From: Bacteroidales bacterium
GTDB taxonomy: Bacteria > Bacteroidota > Bacteroidia > Bacteroidales > UBA932
Length of the DNA stretch: 64,000 nucleotides
Direction of reading: 5' to 3'
NCBI GenBank assembly: GCA_017480345.1
Contig: JAFVAU010000021.1
Span: 1 to 64,000 of the forward strand
In this document: piece by piece, positions 1,773 to 64,000 of the stretch
Position numbering within the stretch: position 1 is the first letter of the stretch
Layout: each line of letters starts with the position of its first letter
Notes under the pieces: generated by a model
Databases searched by the model: none
The model's input: the letters and a program-made list of their open reading frames with translations, nothing else
What the model was told of the DNA's origin: nothing
Position numbers and translations under genes: made by a program

Positions 1773-1967
1773 ATGGCACAGACATCTTACCCCTGCGAGA
1801 ACTGCAAGTTCCGCGCATCCTATGACAAGGATCCCAAGTCGCTGAAAGGCCGATTCTGGCGCTGGCACATCAATTTCTGTCCGGGCTGGAAGGCCTTCTT
1901 CACCCATCAGGACGAAGAGACCAAGGCTGCCCTCCGGAAGAAATATAACTTCAAGAAGCATCAGTAA
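1773..1967 (+). CDS. Small conserved Cys-containing protein
   Basis: A 64-residue soluble, basic protein with a CENC pair near the N-terminus (residues 8-11) and one further Cys in FCPGW. Spacing to its neighbours is tight (10 bases before, 3 bases after), so it is probably co-transcribed with the esterase and the following membrane protein. The Trp/Phe-rich centre (GRFWRWHINFCPGWK) looks like a small conserved Bacteroidales hypothetical protein. Three cysteines could bind a metal, but no function can be assigned. Confidence 0.75.
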   Translation: MAQTSYPCENCKFRASYDKDPKSLKGRFWRWHINFCPGWKAFFTHQDEETKAALRKKYNFKKHQ

Positions 1968-1970
1968 CCC

Positions 1971-2453
1971 ATGGTATTCTTGATTGAGTCCATCGTCGCG
2001 TGCGCCCTTTTCACCCTCTTCGTGTTCCTGATATCCAGGGACCCGGTGAAGATTGTCTTCAACTACCCCCCTGCCATCATTGAGCGCTGCAGGAGCCTCG
2101 GCCTGGTGGATGATTCCAACAAGCCCGGTGGGACGGTCTTCTACGTTAAGAAGATCACCGCAGTACTCCTTTTCGGGGTACTCCTGGGCCTGCTGGTCCG
2201 GTATATCAACGGTTGCACGACTTTCTGGGGCGGGGTCCTCATGGCGTACGCCCTCTGGAACGTCGTCAACTGGTTCGACGCCCTTGTCCTCGACTGCCTG
2301 TGGTTCTGCCATGACAAACACTTTGTCATACCCGGGACTGAGGATATGTCCAAAGATTACCACGATTACTGGTTCCACATCAAGGGGGCTTTTATCGGCA
2401 TGGTGCTCGCCATTCCGGCCACCCTCGTTGCGGGAGCCATCACCATTCTATAG
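1971..2453 (+). CDS. Hypothetical integral membrane protein
   Basis: A 160-residue protein with about four hydrophobic segments: the N-terminus (IESIVACALFTLFVFLI), residues ~60-80, ~80-105 and the C-terminus (GMVLAIPATLVAGAITIL). A polar loop after the first helix carries RDPVKIVFNYPP. It starts 3 bases after the small Cys protein, and the GNAT remnant starts 3 bases after its stop, so the set was probably one operon. I do not recognise a family with a known role. Confidence 0.7.
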   Translation: MVFLIESIVACALFTLFVFLISRDPVKIVFNYPPAIIERCRSLGLVDDSNKPGGTVFYVKKITAVLLFGVLLGLLVRYINGCTTFWGGVLMAYALWNVVNWFDALVLDCLWFCHDKHFVIPGTEDMSKDYHDYWFHIKGAFIGMVLAIPATLVAGAITIL

Positions 2454-2455
2454 CC

Positions 2456-2635
2456 ATGACTGACACACACTACATCATACGCAAAGCGGAGCCCCGCGAC
2501 CTCGAGGCCGTGAACGACCTCCTTCAGCAGGTGCTCTCGGTCCATCACAAGGGCCGTCCGGACCTTTTCAACGAGATCGGCAAGAAATACACGGATGCCG
2601 AGGAAACTCGTTGGATAACTGCGCGCAGGCCGTAG
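2456..2635 (+). pseudogene. GNAT acetyltransferase N-terminal remnant
   Basis: The first ~50 residues (from MTDTHYIIRKAEPRDLEAVN) are typical of the start of a GNAT-family N-acetyltransferase: beta-1, alpha-1 and the loop to alpha-2. The acetyl-CoA-binding motif A (R/QxxGxG/A) is absent because the frame leaves the family near residue 50 and stops at 60. At that point another frame (2611-2931) resembles a C_GCAxxG_C_C protein. Two genes therefore appear joined by a deletion, and no acetyltransferase activity is expected. Confidence 0.65.
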
Positions 2636-2931
2636 TCTGCACCTACTGCGACCTCGTCGGTCTACCCGAAGAGACCGCCCTCGATATCGCAGGGGCCTAC
2701 GGGACCGGCATGGGGAACATGGAAGGGACCTGCGGGGCAAACACTGTCGACAAGGTGTTTGACGAAACCGGGAAGGCCCTTGACGGAATCGATGTGTCCC
2801 ATCTGTCCGCAGATGATGAGTCGGCTCTTGAAAGTAAGATAGAAGAGAAAGTCTCCGCCACCATGAAACTTTTCGCTCAGACGTTTTTGCAAAGATTGCC
2901 ATCGGCCGTAGCGCAGGCTATGGCTCGGTGA
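2611..2931 (+). pseudogene. C_GCAxxG_C_C family fragment with unrelated tail
   Basis: Residues 3-44 (NCAQAVVC..., GAYGTGMGNMEGTCGA) match the conserved Cys-rich N-terminal part of C_GCAxxG_C_C proteins, which are redox or metal proteins of unknown role. The normal start is missing; the frame opens only with a TTG inside the GNAT junction. After the CGA motif the sequence becomes an acidic stretch (ADDESALESKIEEK) that I cannot place, and the later family cysteines are not seen. This looks like a chimera of gene pieces, not a working gene. Confidence 0.5.
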
Positions 2932-3034
2932 CAATATCATGGCCGGTGCAATTGCAGTATGCAAAGGCGGATTTTACCAGAAAATATTTTTTGAACATGA
3001 CTAATCATGCAACCTGGCTGCAAAAAGAATCGTT

Positions 3035-3042
3035 TATCTTTG
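3035..3042 (+). promoter_or_regulatory. -7 promoter box (TATCTTTG) for the DUF6512 gene
   Basis: An exact TATCTTTG lies 20 bases upstream of the ATG at 3063. It indicates that the downstream membrane-protein gene starts at 3063 and not at the upstream in-frame ATG near 2928. Confidence 0.65.
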
Positions 3043-3062
3043 CCGCATCAGACGAACTGATT

Positions 3063-3554
3063 ATGACTCGCAAAGAAACCGCTATCGCCATTATTCTGCT
3101 GATCGTCATCGGCACCGGGATGCATTTCGTACATCACGCACCCTTCTTCAATCACTTCCTCGGATATATCTTCCCCGTGACGGAAAGCGTGATGGCCCAT
3201 ATGAAAATGGTTTTCTATCCGATGCTGCTGCTCAGTCTATTCTTCCTCATAAGCCGCCACGACATCCGCGAGGTGGGCGCTCCCCTTCTGGGCGGACTGG
3301 CCGTAATGCCGCTGATCGTCGCGGCCTTTTTCGCATACTGGATCTTTGTCCGCCACGAACTGCTATTTCTGGACATCATCATCTATATCGTGGCGATGGT
3401 GAGAGCCATTCACCTGACCAAACGCTGGAGAGAGAACCGTTTCATAAGAGACTGGTGGCCGCTATGGATCACCGCCGCGGTCGCCATCATCCTACTGACC
3501 GGCTTCCTGACATGCAACCCGCCCGCCGGCATCGTTTTCGCCGACCTGGGATAG
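3063..3554 (+). CDS. DUF6512-like membrane protein
   Basis: A 163-residue protein with five hydrophobic segments (about residues 7-27, 50-66, 75-95, 99-118, 136-153). The motif PVTESVMAHMKMVFYPM after the first helix is the type of sequence seen in DUF6512 proteins, small membrane proteins without a known role. It has its own promoter, so it is independent of the chimeric fragments upstream. Membrane location is clear; function is not. Confidence 0.65.
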   Translation: MTRKETAIAIILLIVIGTGMHFVHHAPFFNHFLGYIFPVTESVMAHMKMVFYPMLLLSLFFLISRHDIREVGAPLLGGLAVMPLIVAAFFAYWIFVRHELLFLDIIIYIVAMVRAIHLTKRWRENRFIRDWWPLWITAAVAIILLTGFLTCNPPAGIVFADLG

Positions 3555-3623
3555 CGGAGGACCCGGACACAGATTCCCAGGACCAGACACGCAGAGGGCC
3601 GTTTCAAGACGCAGTCGCAAGGT

Positions 3624-3833
3624 GGAGTGAGCAACAACCATAATCTCCGTAACGCCCAGTTCGTTCACCGCCACAATAAGGCTGCGCATAGCGGAGTCCC
3701 AGAGAGAAGGGATTATCGCTCCGGCATTCTTGATAATCTTGGCATCGCCGTTCTTGAGGCCAAGGGCTTCCTGCAGCAGCACGGAAAGTCGCGTATCCAT
3801 GCAGCTGAGCACGTCCAGCTTCTTGTCCGGATA
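3624..3833 (-). pseudogene. Beta-carbonic anhydrase remnant
   Basis: Read on the minus strand from directly after the ATPase stop codon, the sequence gives YPDKKLDVLSCMDTRL, then ALGLKNGDAKIIKNAGA and VAVNELGVTEIMVVAHS. This is the zinc-binding N-terminal half of a beta-class carbonic anhydrase: Cys and Asp-Thr-Arg of CMDTR are zinc and dyad residues. The native start (about 25 residues) is missing. The sequence leaves the family where the second zinc motif (HTDCG) should be. It is in the same frame as the ATPase, separated by one TAG, so it could be reached only by readthrough. Confidence 0.7.
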
Positions 3834-4982
3834 CTACAGCATACTCCAAGGGATAAGTTCACCCTCAGAAGTACTCCTGTGCTGGCTACCGCCATAGACA
3901 ACCTGACGATGGTCTTTGTGCTCACCGGAGAGATTGCCCCAATACTTTAGGTTTTTAAAGAAATCAGCGCTATAAGTCTGTCCCGACTTGATTTCAACAG
4001 CATCGATGTGGTCGCCTTTGTTCATTAGTAGGTCAACTTCGTTGCCATTCGAATCTCGCCAAAATGTGAATGACGGCCGGTCTCCTTCATTGAACCCTCG
4101 CTTCAAGAATTCATTGATGACCATATTCTCGAAAAGTCCTCCTCGAAGGTAGTGATTGGACACTTGCGATGCTTGCTTGATTTCAAGGAGCGAACACGCC
4201 AATCCCGTATCATAGAAATACAGTTTGGGAGTTTTGACAAGTCGCTTGGAGAAGTTCCGGTAATCTGGTTGCAGCAGGTAGATGATATAGCTGGACTGCA
4301 GGACAGAAAGCCAAGAGTTTATGGTTGGAATCGTTACCCCGCACTCTGTTGCAAGCGAAGACATATTAAGGAGTTGACCTATCCTGCCAGCACACAACTT
4401 GAGGAGCCTGACAAAAGAGGAAAGGTTTCCAATGTCCTTCACGGACCTGACGTCCCGTTCTACATAGGTGTCGATATAACTTGGATAGAAGTCTCCGGCC
4501 GACAGACCGTTATCGTAAAGTCTTGGATAACTTCCATTAAAAATTTCCTCGTCAATGCTTTGAGGGAGAATGCCGCTATCACGCATCTCGATGTGGGAAA
4601 AAGGCAGAAGCGTCAGGATGGCCACCCTCCCAGCAAGCGACTGGTCAACGGAGGATAGAAGCTGAAAGTTCTGTGAGCCTGTCAGGATGTACATTCCATT
4701 CTTGCCAGCCAAATCCGAGTGAGTCTGGAGATAAGACAGCAGTTTCGGAACTCGCTGAACCTCATCAATGATGGTTTTTTCCGGGTACTCCGAAATAAAA
4801 CCACGCGGGTCTTCCTCTGCATAGCTTCGGTTGTCAGACTCTTCCAGTGAAACGTAAGAATAATCCGGAAAGGTATGACGCACGAGAGTGGACTTGCCGG
4901 ACTGCCTCGGCCCGGTAAGGAGCACGAATGGGAATTTGGTGGAGAAATATAGCAATTTTTCTCGAAGGGTTCGTTCTATCAT
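3834..4982 (-). CDS. AAA ATPase with C-terminal DUF4143 domain
   Basis: A 382-residue protein of a family common in gut Bacteroidales and often linked to mobile regions; its cell role is unresolved. Walker A GPRQSGKST lies at ~24-32, Walker B TIIDEVQ at ~70-76 and a sensor-like LTGSQNF at ~110. The DUF4143 part follows (~180-340) with a restriction-nuclease-like FWRDSNGNEVDLLM and VEIKSG near 305-335, that is, a D...ExK-like arrangement. A -7 box lies just upstream. The gene contains none of the 7-mer common elsewhere in the window, and its stop abuts a broken carbonic anhydrase gene, both suggesting insertion. Confidence 0.85.
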   Translation of the reverse strand: MIERTLREKLLYFSTKFPFVLLTGPRQSGKSTLVRHTFPDYSYVSLEESDNRSYAEEDPRGFISEYPEKTIIDEVQRVPKLLSYLQTHSDLAGKNGMYILTGSQNFQLLSSVDQSLAGRVAILTLLPFSHIEMRDSGILPQSIDEEIFNGSYPRLYDNGLSAGDFYPSYIDTYVERDVRSVKDIGNLSSFVRLLKLCAGRIGQLLNMSSLATECGVTIPTINSWLSVLQSSYIIYLLQPDYRNFSKRLVKTPKLYFYDTGLACSLLEIKQASQVSNHYLRGGLFENMVINEFLKRGFNEGDRPSFTFWRDSNGNEVDLLMNKGDHIDAVEIKSGQTYSADFFKNLKYWGNLSGEHKDHRQVVYGGSQHRSTSEGELIPWSML

Positions 4983-4999
4983 GATTCTATATTTTTATG

Positions 5000-5007
5000 C
5001 AAATATA
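5000..5007 (-). promoter_or_regulatory. -7 promoter box for the AAA/DUF4143 gene
   Basis: On the minus strand the bases read TATATTTG, 17 bases before the ATG at 4982. The surrounding ~100 bases (4983-5090) are AT-rich and hold nothing else I can identify. Confidence 0.6.
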
Positions 5008-5090
5008 AACTTTAATTTTAGAATAACATAAAATGAACGTAAAAATATGATCCTGACCTGCGAGTTGCTGCCACGAAGGAATTCGAGAAG

Positions 5091-6197
5091 CTAACAGTAT
5101 TCACCGTATTCGCATCCGATGTTCTCCGCATGGATGCGGTCAATGAGGGTCCCCTGATGGTCGAAGAGCTGGATGGTTCCCACACCGTTGCCGCCATTCC
5201 AGAGGCGGTTGTGACGCTTCTGCCCGTCCGGAGCCTCGTAGTTCACCAGGAGCATGTCCGCCTTCTCACAGGTGATGTCCGAAATCATCTTCCCGGAAAT
5301 GCTCGACTGCTCGACATGCCAGATGATCTGCGTGTCGGTTTCCTGGCAGTCGAACTTCGTTTTCACACCGGTCCATACCTTCGAGAAGTTGAACTCGAAG
5401 GGCTTCCCTTCATACCAGAAGGCCGACAACAGACGGCGAGGAAGAGCCAGACGGCCCACCTTGGGCCTCCCTCCGCCGATATCGAAGACGCTGTCCGTCA
5501 GTTTCTTTCCCGTGAGCTCGCTGGTGAGGTTGTTGGATGAAAGCCACACCCAGGGGCTGGTGAAATCCTTTCCCCAGTTCTTGTCGGCATAGCCGTAGCA
5601 GTCTTCAGGACGCACAACATAGCGGCGGCCGTTCCAGATGACCTCACCTTCGAACTCGCTCTTCATGCCCTCCGCATGCCAGAACATCTCGAAGGCCTCG
5701 GCCTTGCGGAAGACTTCATCGGCCCCAAAACCGACATTGAAGGCCGTTATCTTACGGATACTGAGGTTCCATGCCATCTCGCCGTCCTGGCACATCCACT
5801 CGGGATGCTCCGCCGCATTTTCCACTTTCACATGACCATGGGTATGGTCTTCCGTGAGGAAGCAGTCGTCGGCCGCAATGGAAAACGGGACGCCCCAGTC
5901 TACCTTAATCTTCTTCCAGCCCCAGAAACGATGAAGCTGAGCAGCGTCCTTTCCCCAAGCGCCACACTTAACCATCAGATAGGACGGCTTCTGCGGCTTC
6001 CCTGGAAGCTGGCCAAAGGCGGGCTCATCCCCACCAAGGGCGGGATTGCAGAGGAAGAACTCGATAAAGAAAGGCTTGGCGGCGCCAGTCTCGGCGTCAT
6101 ATCCGGTGAAAGAGTGCCACCACCAGTCGTAACCCTTGCTGGCCTGTGCCCCGAAAAGCTGGCAGGCATCGCGGGCGATATCGTGCTTGTTGAACAT
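5091..6197 (-). CDS. Tocopherol cyclase-like protein
   Basis: A 368-residue protein resembling the tocopherol cyclase-like family, lipocalin-like double-domain proteins. In bacteria without tocopherol their substrate is unknown. Visible marks are YDWWWHSFTGYDAETGAAKPFF near the N-terminus and NWGKDFTSPWVWLSSNNL near residue 210, the conserved W-G-K...P..W...N core. No signal peptide or membrane segment is seen. A TTG would allow two more residues, but the ATG at 6197 is the natural start. It is transcribed alone; ~250 bases of non-coding DNA with a hairpin repeat lie upstream. Confidence 0.65.
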   Translation of the reverse strand: MFNKHDIARDACQLFGAQASKGYDWWWHSFTGYDAETGAAKPFFIEFFLCNPALGGDEPAFGQLPGKPQKPSYLMVKCGAWGKDAAQLHRFWGWKKIKVDWGVPFSIAADDCFLTEDHTHGHVKVENAAEHPEWMCQDGEMAWNLSIRKITAFNVGFGADEVFRKAEAFEMFWHAEGMKSEFEGEVIWNGRRYVVRPEDCYGYADKNWGKDFTSPWVWLSSNNLTSELTGKKLTDSVFDIGGGRPKVGRLALPRRLLSAFWYEGKPFEFNFSKVWTGVKTKFDCQETDTQIIWHVEQSSISGKMISDITCEKADMLLVNYEAPDGQKRHNRLWNGGNGVGTIQLFDHQGTLIDRIHAENIGCEYGEYC

Positions 6198-6381
6198 TTT
6201 CAAACGTATCGTTTCTGTACTGACTTGTTATCAGCAAAACTCAGTCCAAGCCTTCCCTACTGACATTTTGTCGCAAATAAGGGCGCAGCCCTTCATGACT
6301 TCGCCCTTTATACCAATGAATGTGGCGTCAGAGATTATTGACAGAAGTCCAGTTTGTGGACAGATTGTCCAGGTTATAGGG

Positions 6382-6432
6382 AGATGAAGAGCCGGACAGG
6401 CGAACTTGTCCTGCTGCTGGGCTCTGTGGGGG
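6382..6432. repeat. Second copy of the AGAGCC/GGCTCT hairpin element
   Basis: The ends GAGATGAAGAGCCGG and GGGCTCTGTGGG match those of the first hairpin at 243-310. The inner part differs: here GGACAGG...TTGTCC gives a small nested stem. Conserved outer sequence with a changing but still paired interior suggests a structured element under constraint. It lies downstream of the aldo/keto reductase stop (minus strand) and may end that transcript. The rest of 6198-6449 shows nothing clear. Confidence 0.5.
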
Positions 6433-6449
6433 ATTAATGCGGAGAATGT

Positions 6450-7439
6450 TCAAATTCCGTTAGAATCTGTTTTTGCAAGTGCACCAACAATCTCGTGGGC
6501 CTTATAAGGCTCTTCAAGAAAGGCTATGTCTTCATGCGAAAGGGACAGATCTACGGCACGGACAGCGGCATCAAAGTGCGGCACTTTGGTGGCACCAACA
6601 ATTGGCGCGGCAACACCCTTGGCCAGCGTCCAGGCAAGGGCTACCTCCGTCATGGTCACTCCCAGGCGTTCGGCCAGAACCGCTACCCGCTCGATGATTT
6701 CCAGGTCGTTCTCCTTGGAGGCGTCGTACTTCTTGCGGATGGTCTTGTCCGTATTGGAGCGGGCTGTGCCGCTCTCCCAGCCCCGGTGCGTCAGGTGACC
6801 GCCCGCCAGCGGAGAATATGGAATGCGGGAAACGCCGTACTGCTCACAGACGGGAATCAGTTCCCGCTCATCCTCCCGGTACATCAGGTTGTAGTGGTTC
6901 TGCATGGTGGAAAAAAGTGTCCAGCCATTCCGCTCGGCGCAAATCTGCATGTTGTGGAACTGGAAACCGTACATGGCCGATGCCCCGATGGCACGCACCT
7001 TCCCCGCCTTCACCAGCGAATCCAGCGCCTCCATGGTCTCCTTGATGGGCGTACCGTAGTCAAAGCGATGAATCTGATACAGGTCCAGATAATCTGTACC
7101 CAGGCGACTGAGCGTTCCGTCAATCTCGCGGAGGATTGCTTTCCGGGAAAGCTGTCCCTCATTGAAGAACACCTTGGAGGCGAGAACTACTTTATCGCGG
7201 GGCACGCCGATGTTCCTCAGCGCCCGGCCCAGATACTCTTCGCTGGTGCCGAAGGAATAGATGTTGGCGGTGTCGAAGAAATTGACACCCAGGTCGATGG
7301 CGTGCTTCACCATAGCCTGTGTATCTTCAGGGCCCAGTGTCCACTGATGGAAGTCTTCCGAGGCTTTTCCGTAGGACATGCAACCTACGCAGATGCGGGA
7401 TACCTCAATCCCGGTGTTTCCAAGCGTTGTGTATTTCAT
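6450..7439 (-). CDS. Aldo/keto reductase
   Basis: A 329-residue NADPH-dependent oxidoreductase of the aldo/keto reductase superfamily (TIM barrel). The catalytic set is present: Asp56, Tyr61 (FFDTANIYS), Lys89 (LASKVFF) and His124 (YQIHRFDYG). The C-terminal cofactor part (VGATKVPHFDAAVRAVDL) is intact. I chose the Met that begins MKYTTLGNTGIEVSR, because the ten residues before it overlap the flavodoxin gene. It follows the flavodoxin with one base between stop and start, so the two form an operon. Substrate unknown. Confidence 0.9.
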   Translation of the reverse strand: MKYTTLGNTGIEVSRICVGCMSYGKASEDFHQWTLGPEDTQAMVKHAIDLGVNFFDTANIYSFGTSEEYLGRALRNIGVPRDKVVLASKVFFNEGQLSRKAILREIDGTLSRLGTDYLDLYQIHRFDYGTPIKETMEALDSLVKAGKVRAIGASAMYGFQFHNMQICAERNGWTLFSTMQNHYNLMYREDERELIPVCEQYGVSRIPYSPLAGGHLTHRGWESGTARSNTDKTIRKKYDASKENDLEIIERVAVLAERLGVTMTEVALAWTLAKGVAAPIVGATKVPHFDAAVRAVDLSLSHEDIAFLEEPYKAHEIVGALAKTDSNGI

Positions 7440-7440
7440 A

Positions 7441-8004
7441 CTATTGCTGATCTTTAACAAATTTTTCAATCTGAGCCTGGGCCGATTTCACTTTGGAGCC
7501 CTGGATGGAAAGGCCTTTCTTGACGAAGGCCGATGGAATAGCCTTCCTCAAATCGGAAAGTCCGCTGCCGAAACCGCTGCCTTCGTGGGTGGTGAAGGGG
7601 ATGACCGTCTTCCCGCTCCAATCATGGGCTTCCAGGAAAGTGGCGACGCACATCGGGTAGGTTCCCCACCAGCAGGGCCAGCCCAGATAGATGGTGTCGT
7701 ACTGGGAAATGTCGATATCGGCCTTCAGCGCAGGGCGCGCCTTGGCGTTCAATTCGTCCTTGGCCTCCTGAGTGCAGGTCATATAGTCGGCGGAGTATTC
7801 CTTGACGGTCTCCAGGCGGAAGATATCGGCCCCGGTAAGCTTCTGAATCTTCTCGGCAACCACCTGGGTATTGCCTACTTTGAGATCAACGATGCCGTCG
7901 GACGTATAGTTCTGCCCGGTGCGGGAATAATAGACCACAAGGGTCTGGGCCGATGCGCTCAGTGCGGCAAGGGCAAGGATGGCGGTAAGGAGGATGCGTT
8001 TCAT
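7441..8004 (-). CDS. Exported flavodoxin
   Basis: A 187-residue flavodoxin with an N-terminal signal peptide (about residues 1-20, ending SASAQ), so the FMN protein probably acts outside the cytoplasm. The phosphate-binding loop (VVYYSRTGQNY, ~23-33) and flavin loops (LGWPCWWGTYP; THEGSGFGSGLSDL) fit the long-type flavodoxins of Bacteroidetes. Its transcript runs on into the aldo/keto reductase one base later. An exported electron carrier next to a cytoplasmic reductase is notable, and their link is inferred from position only. Confidence 0.87.
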   Translation of the reverse strand: MKRILLTAILALAALSASAQTLVVYYSRTGQNYTSDGIVDLKVGNTQVVAEKIQKLTGADIFRLETVKEYSADYMTCTQEAKDELNAKARPALKADIDISQYDTIYLGWPCWWGTYPMCVATFLEAHDWSGKTVIPFTTHEGSGFGSGLSDLRKAIPSAFVKKGLSIQGSKVKSAQAQIEKFVKDQQ

Positions 8005-12490: not shown

Positions 12491-12496
12491 TCAGGA

Positions 12497-57600: not shown

Positions 57601-58223
57601 GTGCCTCCTACGACATCGGTTACGGCGGTCTGGACCACGTACTGGCCAGCGGCGAGAACGTGAACGTCCTGGTTCTGGACACCGAGGTGTACTCCAACAC
57701 CGGCGGACAGAGCTCCAAGGCCACTCCGGTGGGCGCCATCGCCAAGTTTGCCGCTTCCGGCAAGAAGATCCGCAAGAAGGATCTGGGCATGATGGCCATC
57801 AGCTACGGCTACGTCTATGTGGCCCAGGTGGCCATGGGTGCCAGCCCGGTTCAGTTCTTCAACGCCATCAAGGAAGCCGAGGCTTACGACGGCCCGTCCC
57901 TGATCATCGCCTACAGCCCTTGTATCAACCACGGTCTGAAGGCCGGCATGGGTCTGAGCCAGAAGGAAGAGAAGTTGGCCGTAGAGTGCGGTTACTGGCA
58001 CCTATACCGTTACAACCCGGCCCTGGAAGGAACGGACAAGAACCCGTTCACGCTGGATTCCAAGGAACCCGACTGGACCAAGTTCCAGGACTTCCTCAAG
58101 GGAGAGGTCCGCTTCGCTTCCCTGTACAAGATGTTCCCGGAAAGTGCCGACGAACTCCTGACCAAGACGGAAGAGTTTGCCAAGGTGCGCCTGAACACCT
58201 ACAAACGCCTGGCCGGAAAATAG
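54699..58223 (+). CDS. nifJ: Pyruvate:ferredoxin (flavodoxin) oxidoreductase
   Basis: A 1174-residue homodimer-type enzyme converting pyruvate and CoA to acetyl-CoA, CO2 and reduced ferredoxin. Domains run in the usual order: alpha/TPP-pyrimidine domain (DGNYAASNIAYLFSEHAAIY), the beta and gamma domains, a two-cluster ferredoxin domain (CIQCNTCAFVCP ~690; CTGCGNCVDVC ~750), the proximal cluster CAGCGETP (~815) and TPP binding GDGASYDIGYGG (~965). Codon use is very regular, as for a highly expressed gene. A ferredoxin gene lies at 61529-61702. Confidence 0.96.
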   Translation: MAKEQKFITCDGNYAASNIAYLFSEHAAIYPITPSSTMAENIDEWAAHGKKNLWGETVKVTEMQSEAGAAGAVHGSLQAGALTSTFTASQGLLLMIPNMYKIAGEMLPTVFHVSARALASHALSIFGDHQDVMACRQTGFCMLASGSVQEAQDLAAVAHLSAIKSSLPFLHFFDGFRTSHEIQKIEALDEEALRDMVSTKALAKFRARALNPDAPVTRGTAQNGDVYFQAVETRNQFYEAVPDVVARYMGEITELTGRTYRPFEYYGDPTAENIIVAMGSVTETIKETIDYLEGRGRKYGLITVHLYRPFSEKYFFAVLPKSVRRIAVLDRTKEPGAVGEPLFTDVKALFQGKDNVQIIGGRYGLSSKDTTPAQIVAVFDNLDMKEPKADFTIGIVDDVTFKSLPIKSEVSIVKPGTTECKFYGLGSDGTVGANKNTIKIIGSHTDLYSQAYFDYDSKKSGGYTCSHLRFGQQPIKAPYLVNTPDFVACHVPSYLKKYDVLKGIKEGGTLLLNSLWDEEETIKNIPDNVKATIGRKHIKVYIINATKIAAEIGLGGRTNTILQSAFFKITGIIPYEDAVKYMKDAIVKSYGKKGENVVNMNYAAVDRGGEYTELHVPADWAGLTAKFENPNKDRLAPAFVKDIADVVNAQAGDTLPVSAFLPYADGTMPAGTAAFEKRGVAVNVPTWDAEKCIQCNTCAFVCPHAAIRPFLLTEEEAAKVPANVKLAQGKANLKDYKYAIAISVDDCTGCGNCVDVCLAKPEKALKMVPYINDKEDQAAFDYLNKKVGYKEYVDKKANMKNSQFAQPLFEFSGACAGCGETPNIKTITQLFGDHMMIANATGCSSIYGASFPASPYCTNAAGHGPAWANSLFEDFCEFGLGMKLGSDRARETVAGAMRKALECDCCSQDIKALAAKWLEAPKDAAVTREVADKLVPLAKDCDCEACKKLVEYQHFIPARSQWIFGGDGASYDIGYGGLDHVLASGENVNVLVLDTEVYSNTGGQSSKATPVGAIAKFAASGKKIRKKDLGMMAISYGYVYVAQVAMGASPVQFFNAIKEAEAYDGPSLIIAYSPCINHGLKAGMGLSQKEEKLAVECGYWHLYRYNPALEGTDKNPFTLDSKEPDWTKFQDFLKGEVRFASLYKMFPESADELLTKTEEFAKVRLNTYKRLAGK

Positions 58224-58236
58224 TCCGGTTAGTTAA

Positions 58237-58276
58237 GAAAGAAACGGTGGCCTGCAAAGGTCACCGTTTCTTATTT
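58237..58276. terminator. Bidirectional hairpin terminator after nifJ
   Basis: GAAACGGTG-GCC and GGT-CACCGTTTC form a stem of ~12 bp with a TGCAAA loop, preceded by A-rich and followed by T-rich sequence. It separates convergent nifJ and the LysR-type gene and overlaps the latter's stop codon. Confidence 0.8.
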
Positions 58277-58537
58277 GGCGAAGACGCTGTTAAAAGCGTT
58301 GTTGGCTAAATCATATGCCTGCTGGATGCGACGTGCATAGCCCAGGAAGATTTCTCCGGAAGGAGTGAGCCTTAGCTCCCGGCCCCGCTCAAAGAGCTCT
58401 GTACCAAGGGACTCCTCCAGAGCCGCAATCTGCGCACTCACCGCCGGCTGCGAAATTCCTATCTGCGCTGCAGCGCGCGTAAAATTCCTTTCCTTCTCCA
58501 CTTCCAGGAAAGCACGGATTTTGCTGTCTTCCAACAT
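58271..58537 (-). CDS. Stand-alone LysR-type DNA-binding domain
   Basis: An 88-residue protein starting MLEDSKIRAFLEVEKERNFT. It holds a complete LysR helix-turn-helix (AAAQIGISQPAVSAQIAALE, then LGTELFERGRELRLTPSGE) and the first linker helix (YARRIQQAYDLANNAF). The ~200-residue ligand-binding part of LysR proteins is absent, and the frame simply ends, 34 bases from nifJ. Short DBD-only LysR proteins do occur in Bacteroidales, so this may be a working regulator or dominant-negative form, not a broken gene. An earlier ATG lies nine codons upstream. Confidence 0.72.
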   Translation of the reverse strand: MLEDSKIRAFLEVEKERNFTRAAAQIGISQPAVSAQIAALEESLGTELFERGRELRLTPSGEIFLGYARRIQQAYDLANNAFNSVFAK

Positions 58538-58572
58538 ATAATCAAACTCTTTTATCTTTTGCAAAAATAATG

Positions 58573-58580
58573 TAAATTTG
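58573..58580 (+). promoter_or_regulatory. -7 promoter box (TAAATTTG) for the M16 peptidase gene
   Basis: TAAATTTG lies 31 bases before the ATG at 58612, in the divergent gap with the LysR-type gene. Confidence 0.6.
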
Positions 58581-58611
58581 TCGGATAGAAAAACCTAATT
58601 TCAACTAAAAT

Positions 58612-61476
58612 ATGAAGAGACTCTTTTTAGCTATCGCTGCCCTGGCCATCCTGGTTCCCCAGGCTCAGGCACAGCAGCCCACCCGTGAGCAGATGGAAGC
58701 AGCCATTGCCCAGATGCCCAAGATTCCCAATTCGGATCAAGTGAAAATCGGCCACCTTGACAATGGCCTCACTTACTACATCCGCCACAACGAGCTCCCC
58801 AAGGGCCGCGCAGAATTCTACCTGGCCACCAACGTAGGTGCCATTCAGGAGATTCAGCCCCAGCAGGACGGCCTGGCCCACTTCCTGGAGCACATGTGCT
58901 TCAACGGAACCAAGAACTTCCCCGACAAGACCATCCTTAACTACCTGCGTTCCATCGGCGCGGAATTCGGCCGCAACATCAACGCCTCCACCGGTTTCGA
59001 GGAAACCCAGTACATGCTCAACAACATTCCCGTAGAACGTGAGAGCGTAGTGGACAGCTGCCTCATGATCTTGGGAGACTATTCCCACAATGTGCTCAAC
59101 GAGCCCAAGGAGATTGACGCCGAGCGCGGAGTCATCATCGAGGAGCGCCGCACCCGCCGCAACGCCTCCTGGCGTTCCATGGAGCGTTCACTCCCCTACT
59201 ATTTCGGGACCGATTCCAAACTGGCAGAGTGCACGCTCATCGGCACCCAGGAGCACCTGGAGACCTTCAAATATGAAAGCCTGAACGATTTCTACCACAC
59301 CTGGTACCACCCCGGCAACCAGGCCGTCATTGTGGTGGGTGACGTGGATGTGGACCGCACCGAGGCCAAGATCAAGGAAATCTTCGGCGCCATCCCCGCC
59401 AAGGAGAATCCGCTTGCAAAGCCCATCCAGAGCATTGCAGACCATGCAGAGCCCCGCGTAGGCATCATCACGGACCCCGAAACCACCGCCCCCTCCATCG
59501 AGCTCATCTGGCACAGCGAAGCCATGCCCGAGAGCGTCAACGGTACGGCCTTGGGCCAGGTGACGGACCTTCTGGAGAGCGTCATCCGCATGGTCATGCG
59601 CGAGCGTTTCAACGATATCACCTCCAAGCCCGGCTCCTCTTATCTGAGCGGAAGTTTCGGCGTGAGCGACCTCATCTACGAAGACATCGAGGCCGTGATG
59701 GGTGACGTCACCCTCAAGGAAGACAACATCTTGGGTGGCTTCAAGGACTTCTACACGGAATTGGTGCGCCTGCAGCGCTACGGCATCACCGACGCCGAGT
59801 TCAAGCGCGTCAAGGCAGACTATCTCTCCATGCTGGAAACCCGCGCAAACCGTGCCAGCACCCGTCAGAATCCCGAATTCATCTACCCCATCCTCTCCAA
59901 CTTCTTTGACAAGGAACCCATCCTGGAACCGGCCGATCAGAAAGAACTCATCGAGGCCTTCTTCGGCCAGCTCAACGCCGCCGCCATCAGCCAGGCCGTA
60001 GCCCAGCTCTGGAGCGGTGAAAACATGGTCATCGTGTACAACGGCCCCGAGAAGGAAGGCATCGCCACTCCTACGGCCGAGCAGCTCCTCCAGGTTATTG
60101 AGGAGGTGAACGCTTCCGAGATTGCCGCCCCAGAGGGTGAAGACATCCCCGAGGCCTTCCTGGATCCCGCCAAGCTCAAGGGTGCCAAGATTGCCAAGAC
60201 CGGCACCACCATCTACGGTGCCAGCGAGTGGACCCTCAAGAACGGTGTGAAGGTGATCGTCTATCCTACGGACCTCCAGAAAGACCAGATTCTCTTCAAC
60301 CTGGTCAAGGACGGCGGCACCAGCCTCATCTCCGACGAGGACCTCTCCTCCTTCGAGAGCAATGTGCTGGCCCTCTTCCAGAGCAACAGCGGCGTATCGG
60401 CCTTCTCCGGCACCACCGTCACCAAGATGCTCACCGGCAAGAACCTGAGCGTGAATCCTTACTTTGACCGCCTTGAGAACGGTATCAACGGCAACAGCAC
60501 CGTCAAAGACTTCGAGACGGCCATGCAGCTGGTATACCTCTATTATATGGATCCCCGCTTCGACCCCGAAGAGTGGCAGAACGGAATTGACCAGATCAAG
60601 GCCATCCTGCCCAACCTGGTGAACCAGCCCAACTACAAGCTCCAGACCGAGCTGTACAAGACCCTCTATGGCGGCAGCCCCCGTCGTCTGCTGATTTCCG
60701 ACGATGTCCTGGCCAAAGCCAACCTGGCCACCGTTCAGAAGAACTGGAAGACCCTCTTTGCCGATGCCGCCGGCGCCAAGCTGGTCATCGTGGGTGATGT
60801 GAACCCCGAGGCCATCAAACCCGTGGTGGAGAAATACATCGGCTCCCTGCCCAAGGGCAAGAAAGCCCTCAATTGGGTGGACAACAACGACGACATCGTG
60901 AAGGGCCGCGTGGAGAAGGTGATTGAAGTGGACATGCAGACTCCCAAGAGCACCGTCCTTCAGGTGTATACGGCCCATGTGCCCTTCAGCTATGAGAAGG
61001 ACGCCGCCATGGACGCCATCTCCTACATCCTGGACATGCACTACACGGAGAGCCTCCGCGAAGAGGAAGGCGGCACCTATGGCGCCAGCACCTCCGCAAC
61101 CCTTTCCCGCCGTCCCAAGGAGCAGGCCCTCATCCAGGTCTACTTCGACTGCAAGCCCGCCCTTTGCGACAAGCTCCGTGAGCTGGCCATCAAGGGCATC
61201 AAGGACTTTGCCGCCAATGGCCCCACAGACGAGGAGCTGAACATGGCCAAGCTGAACCTCCAGAAGAACATTCCGGAAAGCCGTCAGCGCAACTCCTGGT
61301 GGAGAAACAACATCGAGCTCTACCTCACCTACGGCACGGACCGCGACACCGCCTACGAGGCTGCCGTGAACGGACTCACCAAGGAGTCCATCCAGGCCAC
61401 CCTGCAGGAAATCCTGGCGCAGGACAACTTTATCGAACTGGTGATGAAGCCCGCTGCTATCGCCGAGGCTGAATAA
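58612..61476 (+). CDS. M16 family zinc metallopeptidase, exported
   Basis: A 954-residue peptidase with a signal peptide (ending AQAQ near 21). The inverse zinc motif HFLEH lies at ~90-94 (His90, Glu93, His94), with the third ligand Glu ~80 residues later (DAERGVIIEE). A second, inactive M16 half follows in the C-terminal ~450 residues (TIYGASEWTLKNGVKVIVYP, then SLREEEGGTYGAS). The layout matches the pitrilysin-like two-repeat family; peptides or small proteins in the periplasm are the likely substrates. A terminator follows. Confidence 0.92.
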   Translation: MKRLFLAIAALAILVPQAQAQQPTREQMEAAIAQMPKIPNSDQVKIGHLDNGLTYYIRHNELPKGRAEFYLATNVGAIQEIQPQQDGLAHFLEHMCFNGTKNFPDKTILNYLRSIGAEFGRNINASTGFEETQYMLNNIPVERESVVDSCLMILGDYSHNVLNEPKEIDAERGVIIEERRTRRNASWRSMERSLPYYFGTDSKLAECTLIGTQEHLETFKYESLNDFYHTWYHPGNQAVIVVGDVDVDRTEAKIKEIFGAIPAKENPLAKPIQSIADHAEPRVGIITDPETTAPSIELIWHSEAMPESVNGTALGQVTDLLESVIRMVMRERFNDITSKPGSSYLSGSFGVSDLIYEDIEAVMGDVTLKEDNILGGFKDFYTELVRLQRYGITDAEFKRVKADYLSMLETRANRASTRQNPEFIYPILSNFFDKEPILEPADQKELIEAFFGQLNAAAISQAVAQLWSGENMVIVYNGPEKEGIATPTAEQLLQVIEEVNASEIAAPEGEDIPEAFLDPAKLKGAKIAKTGTTIYGASEWTLKNGVKVIVYPTDLQKDQILFNLVKDGGTSLISDEDLSSFESNVLALFQSNSGVSAFSGTTVTKMLTGKNLSVNPYFDRLENGINGNSTVKDFETAMQLVYLYYMDPRFDPEEWQNGIDQIKAILPNLVNQPNYKLQTELYKTLYGGSPRRLLISDDVLAKANLATVQKNWKTLFADAAGAKLVIVGDVNPEAIKPVVEKYIGSLPKGKKALNWVDNNDDIVKGRVEKVIEVDMQTPKSTVLQVYTAHVPFSYEKDAAMDAISYILDMHYTESLREEEGGTYGASTSATLSRRPKEQALIQVYFDCKPALCDKLRELAIKGIKDFAANGPTDEELNMAKLNLQKNIPESRQRNSWWRNNIELYLTYGTDRDTAYEAAVNGLTKESIQATLQEILAQDNFIELVMKPAAIAEAE

Positions 61477-61482
61477 CAAAAG

Positions 61483-61514
61483 AGCCCTGCCATCTGGCAG
61501 GGCTTCTTTTTTTA
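61483..61514. terminator. Bidirectional hairpin terminator after the M16 gene
   Basis: AGCCCTGCC and GGCAGGGCT pair perfectly around ATCT and are followed by TTCTTTTTTT. A-rich bases precede it, so it can also end the ferredoxin transcript coming from the other side. Confidence 0.85.
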
Positions 61515-61528
61515 ATCGTAACGAGCGA

Positions 61529-61702
61529 TTACGCTTCGCTAATCGCTTCGTTGGGGCAGGTGCCTTCGCAGGCGCCGCAATCAATGCACTCGTCGGCGTT
61601 GATGACGTAGGAGGCTTCACCGGCGCTGATGGCGCCAACGGGGCAGACTTCTGCACAGGAGCCGCAGGAAACGCAAAGCTCGGGATTGATGATTCTAGGC
61701 AT
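61529..61702 (-). CDS. 2[4Fe-4S] ferredoxin
   Basis: A 57-residue clostridial-type ferredoxin starting MPRIINPELC. Both cluster motifs are intact: CVSCGSCAEVCPVGAI and CIDCGACEGTCPNEAI, with the usual spacing and pseudo-twofold repeat. It is the probable electron acceptor of NifJ, 3 kb away, and possible donor for the flavoprotein at 32049. A -7 box (TATCTTCG, minus, 61746-61753) lies about 45 bases before the start. Confidence 0.93.
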   Translation of the reverse strand: MPRIINPELCVSCGSCAEVCPVGAISAGEASYVINADECIDCGACEGTCPNEAISEA

Positions 61703-61786
61703 AGTTTAAATCTTTTTTATTGTTGTTGTATTGTCTTCTAAGGTGCGAAGATAGGCATTAAATTTGAAAATAAAAAGAAGTGTAAC

Positions 61787-61794
61787 TAACTTTG
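61787..61794 (+). promoter_or_regulatory. -7 promoter box (TAACTTTG) for the DUF1573 gene
   Basis: TAACTTTG ends 5 bases before the ATG at 61800, so transcription would begin at or very near the start codon. Confidence 0.55.
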
Positions 61795-61799
61795 TGTGC

Positions 61800-62924
61800 A
61801 TGAAAGCTATGTTTTGGACCCTTCTTTTAGCCGCCTCCCTGGGCACCTGCGGTACCCGGAATGCAAATAGCGCGCCAGTGGTGGAACTGGTGGCCGTGGA
61901 AGATCCCCAGGCTCCCGAGACGGTGACCTTTGACAAAACGGTTCACGACTTTGGAGACGTGAGCGTCACGGACGGTCCCCTCTCCTGCACCTTCACCCTC
62001 ACCAACAAAGGGAAAGAGGTCATCAGCATCTACGAGGTGGTTTCCTCCTGCGGCTGCACGGACGTCAAGTGGACCAAGGGAACCATCGCTCCCGGCGAGA
62101 GCGGAACCATATCGGCCACCTACAAGAATGAAGACGGCCCCATGCCCTTTGACAAAACGCTTACCGTATACATTTCCGGCGTCAAAAGGCCGGTGGTGCT
62201 GCGCCTGATGGGCGTGGTGCACGAGAAAAAGAAATCCCTGAGCCAGCTCTACGGCGCTGAAAAGCTCGGGGATTTTGGTCTCAAGGCCCGCAAATTCAAA
62301 ACCGCCACCCTGAAGCAGGGACTCTCCGTGAGCGAAACCGCCACGGTGGCCAATCTGGGCAAGAAGCCACTGAAGGTAGAATGGGCCGATGTCTCCCCCC
62401 AGCTCAGCCTCTCCCTCACCCCTAACCCCATCCCGGCGGGCAGCACCGCCACCCTCACCTTCACCATCCGGGCCGATTCCGCCCTTTACGGGAAAACGGT
62501 CTACCATGCCACTCCCGTCCTGAACGGGAAGAAGGCGGCCGAGGGGCTGGAAGTATCGGCCTATACGCAGGAGAATTTCGCCTCCTGGAGCAGCGAGCGG
62601 AGGGATAAGGCGCCCCTCCCGGTGATGCAGTCAAGCACCATCAACCTGGGAACGGTGAAAAAGGGGGAAAAGAAGGAAATCGTCTTCGAATGCTCCAATC
62701 GCGGAAAAGAGGCCTTCCATATCTACAAGGCCGATGCCGAAGTGCCTGCCCTCAAAGCCGTTTCCCTTCCGGACGTAGCCCCCGGCAAAAAGGAAAACCT
62801 CCGCTTCACCCTTGACACCGCCGCCCTCCCAGAAGGGGAAAACGTCATCATGGTTTCCCTTACCACCAACTCTCCCCTCCGCCCGCTTGTTAACCTTTTC
62901 GTAGCAATTGTCATTAAAAAATAG
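61800..62924 (+). CDS. DUF1573 lipoprotein
   Basis: A ~374-residue exported protein of immunoglobulin-like beta domains. The signal ends near AASLGTCG (possible lipobox). The DUF1573 motif FDKTVHDFGDVSVTDGPLSC, then FTLTNKGKEVISIYEVVSSCGCTDVKW, is clear at ~40-90. Two further Ig-like repeats follow (~150-240 and ~270-374), the last with INLGTVKKGEKKEIVFECSN. Such proteins are common at the Bacteroidetes surface; no role is established. An alternative ATG lies three codons later. Confidence 0.8.
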   Translation: MKAMFWTLLLAASLGTCGTRNANSAPVVELVAVEDPQAPETVTFDKTVHDFGDVSVTDGPLSCTFTLTNKGKEVISIYEVVSSCGCTDVKWTKGTIAPGESGTISATYKNEDGPMPFDKTLTVYISGVKRPVVLRLMGVVHEKKKSLSQLYGAEKLGDFGLKARKFKTATLKQGLSVSETATVANLGKKPLKVEWADVSPQLSLSLTPNPIPAGSTATLTFTIRADSALYGKTVYHATPVLNGKKAAEGLEVSAYTQENFASWSSERRDKAPLPVMQSSTINLGTVKKGEKKEIVFECSNRGKEAFHIYKADAEVPALKAVSLPDVAPGKKENLRFTLDTAALPEGENVIMVSLTTNSPLRPLVNLFVAIVIKK

Positions 62925-63039
62925 GCAAAGGTATATATGCTCAAACCGTCGCTTCGCGACCCCTCCCAACCTTTCGGTTGGGCCCCTCCCTCTTACAAGG
63001 CCGAGGGTGGCCATGGGTTTGAGCATATACACCTTTGCC
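62924..63039. repeat. Long-armed hairpin element between DUF1573 and topoisomerase genes
   Basis: Arms of 24 bases (62924-62947 and 63016-63039) match at 23 positions: GGCAAAGG.ATATATGC-type against its complement. Inside are the palindrome GTCGCTTCGCGAC (62947-62959) and a CCAACC/GGTTGG hairpin. The same inner palindrome occurs inside the fabD inverted repeat. It may act as terminator for the DUF1573 gene, but the arms are longer than needed for that. Confidence 0.65.
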
Positions 63040-63057
63040 CATTCCAGCAAAATTTAT

Positions 63058-63065
63058 TAAATTTG
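63058..63065 (+). promoter_or_regulatory. -7 promoter box (TAAATTTG) for the topoisomerase gene
   Basis: TAAATTTG ends 19 bases before the ATG at 63085. Confidence 0.6.
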
Positions 63066-63084
63066 TAGGTTAAATAGAAGACGA

Positions 63085-64000
63085 ATGGCAGAGATTGTAA
63101 ACACCACCTACAACGACGATTCCATCCAGACCCTGGAATGGAACGAGCATATCCGCCGCAGGGCGGGCATGTATATCGGCCGGCTGGGAAACGGAGACCG
63201 CCAGGGAGATGGTATCTATGTGCTCTTGAAGGAAATCGTGGACAACTCCATCGACGAGTTTTCCATGGGCTTCGGCAAGCGCATAGACATCACCATCGAA
63301 GACAAGACGGTGACCGTCCGGGACTTCGGCCGCGGCATTCCCCTGAACAAGGTGGTGGACGCGACCTCCAAGCTCAACACCGGCGGCAAGTTTGACGACA
63401 CCAACTTCAAGAAGTCCGTAGGTATGAACGGCGTGGGCACCAAGGCCGTGAACGCCATGTCCGTGGATTTCTACGTGGCCTCCTACCGTGAGGGCCAGTG
63501 CTCCTACGCCCATTTCACCCGGGGCACGCTGCTGGAAAGCGCCATCGTCCCTTCCAATGAGAAAAACGGCACCTTCATCCGCTTCACCCCGGACGAGGAA
63601 ATGTTCAACGACTTTTCCTTCCACATGGAATTCGTGGAAAGCATGGTCAAGAACTATTCCTACCTCAAGAAGGGCCTCACGCTGAACCTGAACGGTACGC
63701 CGTACAAGAGCGAGAACGGCCTGCTGGACCTGGTGAGCGAGAACATGAACGAGACGCCCCTCTATCCCCTCATCCACCTGGAAGGGGAAGACATTGAGAT
63801 TGTGCTCACCCACGGCAACAGCTACGGAGAGAATATCGCCACCTTCGTGAACGGGCAGAACACCCGCGATGGAGGTACGCACCTGGCTGCCTATAGGGAA
63901 GCCATCGCCAAAACCTTCAAAGACTTCTACAAGAAGGACTACAAGCCCGAAGACATCCGTCAGGGCATTGTGGGCGCCATTTCCATCCAGATTCAGGAAC
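63085..64000 (+). CDS. parE: Type II topoisomerase ATPase subunit (ParE/GyrB-like), partial
   Basis: The first ~305 residues of a GHKL-type topoisomerase subunit that continues past the window. The ATP-binding motifs are ordered as expected: EIVDNSIDEF (N-box), DFGRGIPLN (G1), SVGMNGVGTKAVNAMS (ATP lid), then FVNGQNTRDGGTHL with the start of the transducer domain (EDIRQGIVGAISIQIQE). RRRAGMYIGRLGNGD near residue 25 is the conserved N-terminal arm. The shape fits the Bacteroidetes topoisomerase IV B subunit better than GyrB, but GyrB cannot be excluded from this part. Confidence 0.88.
   Translation, partial: MAEIVNTTYNDDSIQTLEWNEHIRRRAGMYIGRLGNGDRQGDGIYVLLKEIVDNSIDEFSMGFGKRIDITIEDKTVTVRDFGRGIPLNKVVDATSKLNTGGKFDDTNFKKSVGMNGVGTKAVNAMSVDFYVASYREGQCSYAHFTRGTLLESAIVPSNEKNGTFIRFTPDEEMFNDFSFHMEFVESMVKNYSYLKKGLTLNLNGTPYKSENGLLDLVSENMNETPLYPLIHLEGEDIEIVLTHGNSYGENIATFVNGQNTRDGGTHLAAYREAIAKTFKDFYKKDYKPEDIRQGIVGAISIQIQE

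Follow-up and report, generated by a model that had tools for sequence, protein, structure and literature searches.

The heptamer GGCCGAT (ATCGGCC on the other strand) is iterated at high density on both strands in the genome of an uncultured gut Bacteroidales bacterium and in its nearest relatives, and is kept in evolution better than ordinary words. We tentatively regard it as a clade-specific, maintained mark of the cell's own chromosome, most likely a tag for DNA uptake or homologous recombination. This function, and a protein that reads the word, we infer from the pattern described below.

The window, i.e., the whole stretch of 64,000 bases analysed here, contains 94 copies on the two strands (46 forward and 48 reverse), one per 681 bases. 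A first-pass annotation had located 89 copies by eye, spaced at about 700 bases; the repetition is stronger than it claimed. It expected about 10 copies, and 100 dinucleotide shuffles of the window gave a mean of 14.1 (maximum 28). The span it gave, 1849..63181, ends correctly; the first copy it cited starts at 1848, and the earliest copy lies at 1475. The two individual sites that it cited are both present. The positions of interest are:

1475..63181, both strands: span of all 94 copies of GGCCGAT/ATCGGCC (motif count)
1848..1854, + strand: GGCCGAT, first of the span given by the first-pass annotation, outside called genes (motif count)
2901..2907, - strand: GGCCGAT outside called genes, with an inverted one-mismatch partner 40 bases downstream (pair search)
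7441..8004, - strand: called gene of 188 codons, one of the densest in the window (5 copies; gene calls)
13943..13952, no strand assigned: ATCGGCCGAT, in which two copies of opposite orientation overlap (motif count)
32639..32667, no strand assigned: close inverted pair GGCCGAT ... ATCGGCC, 22 bases apart, within coding sequence
53872..53878, + strand: GGCCGAT cited by the first-pass annotation (motif count)
54699..58223, + strand: gene for pyruvate:ferredoxin (flavodoxin) oxidoreductase (PFOR) with 4 copies, from which the tree of related lineages was built
61800..62924, + strand: called gene of 375 codons, whose 5 copies include both orientations (gene calls)

The 47 genes called in the window carry 87 copies, compared with a mean of 15.9 (maximum 30, n = 500) in codon-preserving shuffles, and 7 copies lie outside them. 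At least one copy is found in 39 of these genes and in 29 of the 31 that are at least 900 bp long; the first-pass annotation had noted the word, in both orientations, in nearly all long genes. The whole genome (G000; 2,220,095 bases) holds 3,333 copies, 1,664 and 1,669 by strand, which corresponds to about one per 670 bases or ∼1.5 per kb; the reversed control word occurs 274 times. In a 598-kb sample of the genome GGCCGAT was the most over-represented 7-mer in the codon-preserving shuffle that had been proposed as a check, with 807 copies in 500 kb of coding sequence (385 and 422 by orientation) vs 163.5 expected. Outside called genes 93 copies were counted vs 12.2 expected, a 7.6-fold excess, in a class that may contain missed genes because the calls were made with our own simple codon-score caller. 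The sample also contains 18 overlapping palindromic doubles with a 3-base offset.

The majority of coding copies sit in Ala-Asp, Ser-Ala or Ile-Gly codons, as would be expected of a side effect of codon usage, codon pairs or protein composition. That explanation is nevertheless exceedingly improbable, as the first-pass annotation had argued: it is contradicted by the shuffles, by the excess outside genes and by the presence of both orientations within genes. Moreover, GGCCGAC, GGCCGAA and GGCCGAG, the first two of which the annotation had named as the telling comparison, number only 19, 23 and 15 in the window vs 94 GGCCGAT, and 211, 210 and 112 vs 807 in the 500 kb of coding sequence. Less-used codons are indeed chosen inside the word. 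After G-GCC, 337 of 482 Asp codons are GAT, compared with 2,693 of 9,425 overall, and between A and GCC 254 of 310 Ser codons are TCG, compared with 1,028 of 9,732. Synonymous odds ratios towards GGCCGAT were 5.6, 12.7, 11.2, 18.9, 1.8, 6.3 and 6.8 for positions 1 to 7, a pull at all seven positions that is weak at position 5. They were similar in the sister genome G149; a pool of four motif-poor members of the genus gave 0.2–1.3. In the flanks we saw weak preferences at -2 and +8 and no further extended consensus.

The copies, including the rare codons within them, are also retained between species. Over 118.6 kb in which G000 and G149 are 91.1% identical, 175 copies are shared, and 29 and 39 are private. 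The conserved fraction of GGCCGAT is 0.84, compared with a mean of 0.63 (sd 0.09) for 997 7-mers, which ranks it 11th. Inside the word Ser TCG was kept in 60 of 60 cases (93 of 121 elsewhere) and Asp GAT in 67 of 74 (277 of 383 elsewhere), and outside genes 10 of 11 copies were kept, compared with 3,837 of 7,344 7-mers there. For the PFOR region alone the data are thin: sharing was above expectation in L001 (12 vs 8.4), L005 (10 vs 6.1) and L019 (6 vs 2.9), and near it in L003 (5 vs 5.1), L008 (6 vs 6.2), L038 (3 vs 3.3), L029 (3 vs 3.1) and G067 (1 vs 1.7).

In related genomes, where the first-pass annotation had suggested looking, strong enrichment is essentially confined to a single crown clade among the Bacteroidales of ruminant guts. 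PFOR loci of this clade show GGCCGAT at 2.6–5.3 fold over codon shuffle and most other loci are near 1 (80 loci, of which 75 entered the enrichment with L024, L030, L032, L033 and L067 left out; L120, from G139, is all N and gave no information). Ten further genomes of the genus were sampled, and in nine of them GGCCGAT is at most 1.9 times as frequent as the control word. The highest count in any genome, 4,066, is that of the motif-bearing G152. Some sister lineages use another dialect: TGCCGAT is preferred in L025 and in G168 (L029), and both words occur in G084. In a PFOR tree of 45 loci and the window, read without branch supports, relatives share the word or its dialect along the phylogeny, as is the case for uptake sequences. 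GGCAATG in G174 was considered as a further dialect (198 vs 52.9 in coding sequence) and rejected, since its count outside genes matches expectation (4 vs 4.4); TGAATATG in G177 and G176 is more weakly enriched still.

No strand bias was found in G000 (chi-square 19.0 over 31 segments, the origin position not located) or in G149 (chi-square 33.4 over 41 segments). Because the strands are balanced, the replication-oriented, chromosome-organising role that had been suggested is unsupported. There was no regional concentration, 26 of the 31 segments holding 1.0–2.3 copies per kb, and gaps were near-exponential (CV 1.12 and 1.05), with no spacing more even than random. Neighbours within 400 bp favour opposite orientation (244 of 404 in G000 and 265 of 474 in G149), an effect that is absent for GCCGATG in G000 and absent in the dialect genomes. 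Between genes we found three perfect inverted pairs (6 of 93 copies), one of them followed by a T run, and 16 copies with an inverted partner of at most one mismatch vs 9.7 expected; terminator placement as in Neisseria is seen only as a trace. Among the five motif-free stretches longer than 4 kb, three carry apparent integrase, relaxase, phage-like primase or transposase genes, and L123 and L139 carry ordinary-looking genes. The L127 element has viral relatives at three loci, with best segments of 26–39% identity, too distant to use.

Candidate machinery was sought by protein family. Over the cut-off we found PF00145 (C5) in 4, PF01555 (N4/N6) in 3, PF02384 (type I-like) in 4, PF07669 (Eco57I-like) in 9 and PF02086 (Dam-like) in 6 of the 14 motif-bearing genomes among 20 searched; none of the five methyltransferase families is common to all 14, whose assemblies are incomplete. 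The type IV pilus ATPase PF00437 is over the cut-off in 1 of 37 genomes, the motif-poor G041. G000 and the motif-rich genomes searched have no such match, and most genomes other than G041 gave only weak sub-threshold ones. General competence proteins are present: ComEC (PF03772) in 37 of 37 genomes, and DprA (PF02481) in 18 of 20 including G000, being missed, perhaps through assembly gaps, in the motif-rich G161 and G164. Both are equally common in motif-poor genomes and thus not specific to motif-rich ones. Transformation in Riemerella, also of the Bacteroidota, involves ComEC, DprA, ComF and RecA together with proteins unlike known machinery (PMC8459023, in part).

Several other processes could in principle produce such a word. 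In the model that Elhai proposes for cyanobacterial HIPs, a solitary DNA methyltransferase modifies the word, and repair guided by this mark creates and preserves copies. HIPs likewise occur at nearly one per kb and are exchanged for other words in some lineages (PMC4390886, in part). If an asymmetric site carried a mark that tells the strands apart, the short-range preference for opposite orientations would fit, and G000 has one Eco57I-type protein (PF07669). We consider this unlikely, given that GGCCGAT is no palindrome, that no methyltransferase family of the five is shared in these incomplete assemblies, and that G152, G154 and G164 have no match over the cut-off in any of the five. About as unlikely is a recombination hotspot of the Chi kind, or a self-protection site, that nucleases of the AddAB/RecBCD type would recognise: the word is short and maintained, and with alternating neighbours either end of a broken fragment would meet an oriented site. 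However, the Chi sites known to date lie preferentially on the leading strand, whereas these strands are balanced; Chi does not typically switch to another word inside one genus; and nine of the ten further genomes sampled from the genus lack the enrichment.

It appears improbable that the word binds a nucleoid-associated protein of high abundance or labels self DNA for a defence nuclease. A general mark of the chromosome would be about this dense and this evenly spread over the strands, and scarcity in some mobile elements fits a self-mark; the lack of regional concentration speaks against this explanation. A functionless bias of mutation, repair or gene conversion would account for the enrichment outside genes and, if steady, would likewise raise sharing between species. 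However, each of positions 2 to 4 shows a deficit of every other base (at the fourth, A 6 vs 59, G 27 vs 229 and T 2 vs 44 expected), and since transitions and transversions are affected alike, no single chemistry fits, which makes such a bias decidedly improbable. Alternatives without depletion (T at position 1, C and T at 5, A at 7) look like graded recognition, and could also reflect a complex bias. The depletion of the position-2 neighbour GACCGAT (10 vs 55 expected) was dropped as evidence, because all twelve NACCGAT, NTCCGAT and NCCCGAT words fall below expectation.

In the uptake or recombination reading, which we prefer, the machinery would favour DNA bearing GGCCGAT, as with uptake sequences in Neisseriaceae and Pasteurellaceae. 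Alleles bearing the word would then spread, and it would therefore build up wherever the protein sequence permits and decay slowly. The reader may belong to a pilus-independent competence apparatus of Bacteroidota, comprising ComEC, DprA and a putative outer receptor, and its specificity may have shifted between GGCCGAT and TGCCGAT in sister lineages. Against an uptake tag speak the failure to find a receptor or, in motif-rich genomes, a PF00437 ATPase over the cut-off, the equal frequency of ComEC and DprA in motif-poor genomes and the missing DprA match in two motif-rich ones, the short-range opposite-orientation preference, which uptake sequences (DUS) do not predict, the few intergenic inverted pairs, the ordinary-looking genes in two of the five longest gaps, and near-expectation conservation of the PFOR region in several genomes. 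It is also possible, though we are less confident of this, that Bacteroidota independently evolved a self-DNA language: a 7-bp dialect tag, a putative pilus-independent receptor acting in transformation or recombination, and a strand-specific component that separates copies of the same orientation. If so, dense DNA languages can arise independently with machinery other than type IV pili, and this would bear on gene flow among gut Bacteroidales. Since genomes are at hand for relatives that bear the word, that use a dialect or that lack both, comparing them could reveal the responsible gene.

In Pasteurellaceae and Neisseriaceae, the families with dense uptake words, the reader is known or predicted to be a protein of the type IV pilus. 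In the open-access PMC papers searched, no GGCCGAT-like iterated motif is described from Bacteroidales, in agreement with the first-pass annotation, which knew of none. Its comparison with uptake sequences and HIP1 holds for density, clade restriction and dialects. A replication-oriented role in organising the chromosome is unsupported, and unlike HIP1 the word is no palindrome and has none of five methyltransferase families common to the bearers searched. Chi and KOPS-type motifs are likewise short, frequent words. They are orientation-biased, unlike GGCCGAT, which has no strand skew in the segments examined. HIP1 resembles it as a frequent word that is swapped for another in some lineages; HIPs, however, are palindromes matched by methyltransferases, whereas GGCCGAT is asymmetric. 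To our knowledge HIP1 still has no settled function. HIPs occur about once per kb, and certain cyanobacterial lineages use alternate words in place of HIP1 (PMC4390886, in part).

Neisseriaceae and Pasteurellaceae carry thousands of DUS or USS per genome, and DUS dialects follow phylogeny (PMC3630211, in part). The density of GGCCGAT, which exceeds one per kb over both strands, is of the same order, and its copies lie on both strands, inside and outside genes. It differs from DUS in phylum, in length (7 bases vs 10–13), in the lack of an over-cut-off pilus ATPase, and in showing little sign of inverted pairs at terminators. Pasteurellaceae USS form dialects with a common inner core that are restricted to subclades, and their receptor is predicted to be a type IV minor pilin (PMC12616744, in part). 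Although GGCCGAT has no extended consensus beyond its two weak flanking preferences, it is like USS in that the GGCCGAT and TGCCGAT dialects share an inner core, GCCGAT, and are restricted to subclades.

The heptamer GGCCGAT (reverse complement ATCGGCC) occurs 94 times on the two strands of the window, against a mean of 14.1 and a maximum of 28 in 100 dinucleotide-preserving shuffles. The first-pass annotation had thus seen a real enrichment, although its count of 89 copies was slightly low. The last-base variants, of which it had put forward GGCCGAC and GGCCGAA for comparison, proved ordinary (GGCCGAC 19, GGCCGAA 23, GGCCGAG 15). Coding copies in the 47 called window genes number 87, and codon-preserving shuffles gave a mean of 15.9 (maximum 30, 500 shuffles). 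Across the whole genome (G000; 2,220,095 bases in 46 contigs) we counted 1,664 copies on the forward and 1,669 on the reverse strand, compared with 117 and 157 for the reversed control word.

Codon use was controlled for in a 598 kb sample of G000 (27% of the genome), in which our simple gene caller found 429 genes with 500 kb of coding sequence. When synonymous codons were shuffled within genes 60 times, GGCCGAT was the top over-represented 7-mer (807 vs 163.5), with 385 and 422 copies in the two orientations. The 97.5 kb lying outside called genes, where some genes may have been missed, contain 93 copies vs 12.2 by first-order resampling. Codon choice at the sites is close to saturation: serine between A and GCC is encoded by TCG in 254 of 310 cases and by TCC, the codon preferred in general, in only 7, whereas TCG accounts for 1,028 of all 9,732 serine codons. 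Aspartate after G-GCC is GAT in 337/482 cases vs 2,693/9,425 overall. The enrichment is not a codon effect, and the word picks less-used codons, both as first suggested from the window. A second enriched word in G000 coding sequence is GTCTATG/CATAGAC (147 vs 47 by codon shuffle), which is also one of the top words in the G022 and G172 samples under a low-order Markov model; GGTCTATG is found 55 times vs 12.4.

For a synonymous logo we collected sites at which the other six bases matched and the remaining base was a synonymous third position, with the genome's own codon use as baseline. From position 1 to position 7, the motif base had odds ratios of 5.6, 12.7, 11.2, 18.9, 1.8, 6.3 and 6.8 in G000 and 5.0, 8.7, 28.2, 12.2, 2.1, 8.6 and 5.9 in the sister genome G149; in four genomes of this genus that are poor in the motif (G022, G041, G058 and G072, pooled, with small numbers) they were 0.2 to 1.3. 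At positions 2, 3 and 4 each of the three alternatives was depleted, whether it represents a transition or a transversion; one chemistry of mutation or repair therefore does not account for the pattern. Another base is tolerated at some positions: position 1 accepts T (observed 59, expected 66), position 5 accepts C (22, 14) and T (21, 23), and position 7 accepts A (119, 124); correspondingly, TGCCGAT and GGCCGAA reach 1.47 and 1.32 times the codon expectation. The flanks carry weak preferences only, A at -2 and little C at +8, the latter fitting a general avoidance of GATC. GATC is strongly avoided in the window (208 vs 540 expected), and in G000 coding sequence (window, L081-L090 and L121-L140; L-numbers denote loci or segments read) GATCGC occurs 30 times vs 315; despite this, G000 has no Dam-like PF02086 match. 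In the same coding sequence CTCGAGG hardly occurs (5 vs 130 expected), which would be in keeping with avoidance of a restriction site.

Since contig orientation is arbitrary, strand balance was assessed per segment; the segments proved balanced, with chi-square values of 19.0 (31 segments, G000) and 33.4 (41 segments, G149). Gaps between copies average 629 and 619 bases, respectively, and are nearly exponential. Five stretches longer than 4 kb in the G000 sample lack the word.

Motif-free stretches and their content, by our reading of translations
L121: relaxase- and integrase-like genes
L127: phage-like primase, integrase, amidase
L138: transposase-like gene
L123 and L139: ordinary-looking genes

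From the same reading, L121:6495-13755 and L127:1122-7934, with a relaxase or a phage-like primase and with integrase, are probable integrated mobile elements that are poor in the motif. Neighbours 8-400 bp apart prefer opposite orientations (244/404 in G000, 265/474 in G149; p = 0.003 and 0.012 when orientation is permuted within genes), and none of 2,000 permutations across genes reached the observed value. By our sums, such neighbours make up 42/65 in G152 and 30/60 in G168 plus G084, and for GCCGATG, which overlaps GGCCGAT, the preference is absent both in G000 (136/297) and in G168 plus G084 (96/184). One suggestion from this is that two copies on one strand, if only a few hundred bases apart, are in part redundant, at least in GGCCGAT genomes. 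The G000 sample holds 18 overlapping ATCGGCCGAT doubles; intergenic DNA has three perfect inverted pairs, one of them just ahead of a T run, and 16 of 93 copies have an inverted partner with at most one mismatch (9.7 expected).

G149, of which 677 kb were read, was the closest genome sampled in depth and carries 1.54 copies per kb. The 118.6 kb that align to G000, at 91.1% identity, contain 175 copies present in both genomes, 29 found only in G000 and 39 found only in G149. With a conserved fraction of 0.84 the word comes 11th among the 997 7-mers that reach 60 or more counts in the two genomes combined (mean 0.63, sd 0.09; GGCCGAC 0.54, TGCCGAT 0.76). Sharing would also increase under a steady bias that favours the word, so that sharing alone is no proof of selection. 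Inside the word serine TCG was kept in 60/60 cases vs 93/121 elsewhere and aspartate GAT in 67/74 vs 277/383, whereas GAC, favoured overall, was kept less after GGCC (22/31) than elsewhere (1,287/1,448). Outside called genes the word was kept in 10/11 cases vs 3,837/7,344 for 7-mers there. A smaller comparison of the PFOR region (pyruvate:ferredoxin oxidoreductase, our marker gene) gave conservation near expectation in several genomes and higher in others.

PFOR relatives were uncultured Bacteroidales and Bacteroidia MAGs, many of them ruminant-derived; the Candidatus Cryptobacteroides records among them have a protein identity of 83-84%. From these sources we infer a ruminant-gut habitat for the window species. 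Among 10 other genomes of the genus, G084 reaches 1,319 copies against 209 of the control word; in the remaining nine the counts are 267-504 against 223-373, and the ratio goes no higher than 1.9. The family comprised 149 genomes, in which the maximum outside the genus was 984, and among 344 evenly sampled order genomes no other came near the window genome's density, the highest having about 0.4 per kb by our reading. Copy numbers run from 876 to 4,066 in the 20 tested genomes from which loci L001-L029 come, G152 having the highest number counted; those of L031, L034, L050, L061, L067, L075, L078 and L080 carry 143 to 419, and that of L037 1,581 in 3.1 Mb. As raw counts also climb with G+C, codon shuffles, made for 75 of the 80 PFOR loci, are the better measure. 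They gave 2.6-5.3 fold enrichment in crown-clade loci, 1.3-1.8 fold in near outgroups (L013/16, L022/23, L026, L027/28) and about 1 in most others, except L036/53 (2.1), L037 (2.6) and L038 (3.4). When 45 loci were placed together with the window in a FastTree tree, the enriched genomes appeared as the crown group; L038 has a very long branch and an unreliable position.

Some relatives prefer another form. G168, the genome of L029, favours TGCCGAT (139 vs 29.3) over GGCCGAT (78 vs 21.7), L025 also leans to TGCCGAT, and G084 uses both, with GCCGATG as its top word; the core common to these dialects is GCCGAT. Words enriched in more distant genomes were not established as DNA-level signals: GGCAATG in G174 (L067, L101-L103, L171-L178) exceeds the codon shuffle 3.7-fold, and does so in both orientations, with no enrichment outside called genes of that genome, and the AT-rich GAATAT / TGAATATG exceeds it by about 2-4 fold in G177 (L080, L104-L106, L179-L184) and G176 (L078, L185-L186).

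Thousands of balanced copies, near full-length specificity, above-background sharing, dialects that follow phylogeny and scarcity in some mobile elements make this the pattern of a self-DNA tag. A methylation-guided role is a live rival. Of the five methyltransferase families searched, PF00145 (C5) and PF01555 each match above cut-off in 13 of 37 genomes, PF02384 and PF02086 each in 8 of 20 and PF07669 in 13 of 20; G000 has one PF07669 match and none to the other four. Three of the 14 motif-bearing genomes among the 20 (G152, G154 and G164) have no match above cut-off to any of the five, a result weakened for any single genome by assembly gaps. G172 has 11 C5 matches, the rest of the 37 at most 3 each. 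A Chi-like role and a self-marking role are live rivals as well. ComEC (PF03772) is present in 37/37 genomes and DprA (PF02481) in 18/20, the two without a match (G161, G164) being motif-rich. Transformation can take place in Bacteroidota without recognised pilus proteins; in Riemerella anatipestifer it needs ComEC, DprA, ComF, RecA and proteins unlike known machinery (PMC8459023). For this reason we tentatively favour a pilus-independent uptake or recombination tag, a reading that may well be wrong. A search of open-access PMC found no description of such a motif in Bacteroidota.

Type IV pili usually go with DNA uptake sequences such as the DUS of Neisseriaceae, and the type IV pilus/type II secretion ATPase (PF00437) was above cut-off in only 1 of 37 genomes, the motif-poor G041, so we do not file GGCCGAT as a DUS. 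Among known kinds it would nevertheless work most like a DNA uptake sequence: DUS and the USS of Pasteurellaceae occur as dialects around a conserved inner core (PMC3630211, PMC12616744), a parallel to the GCCGAT core found here.
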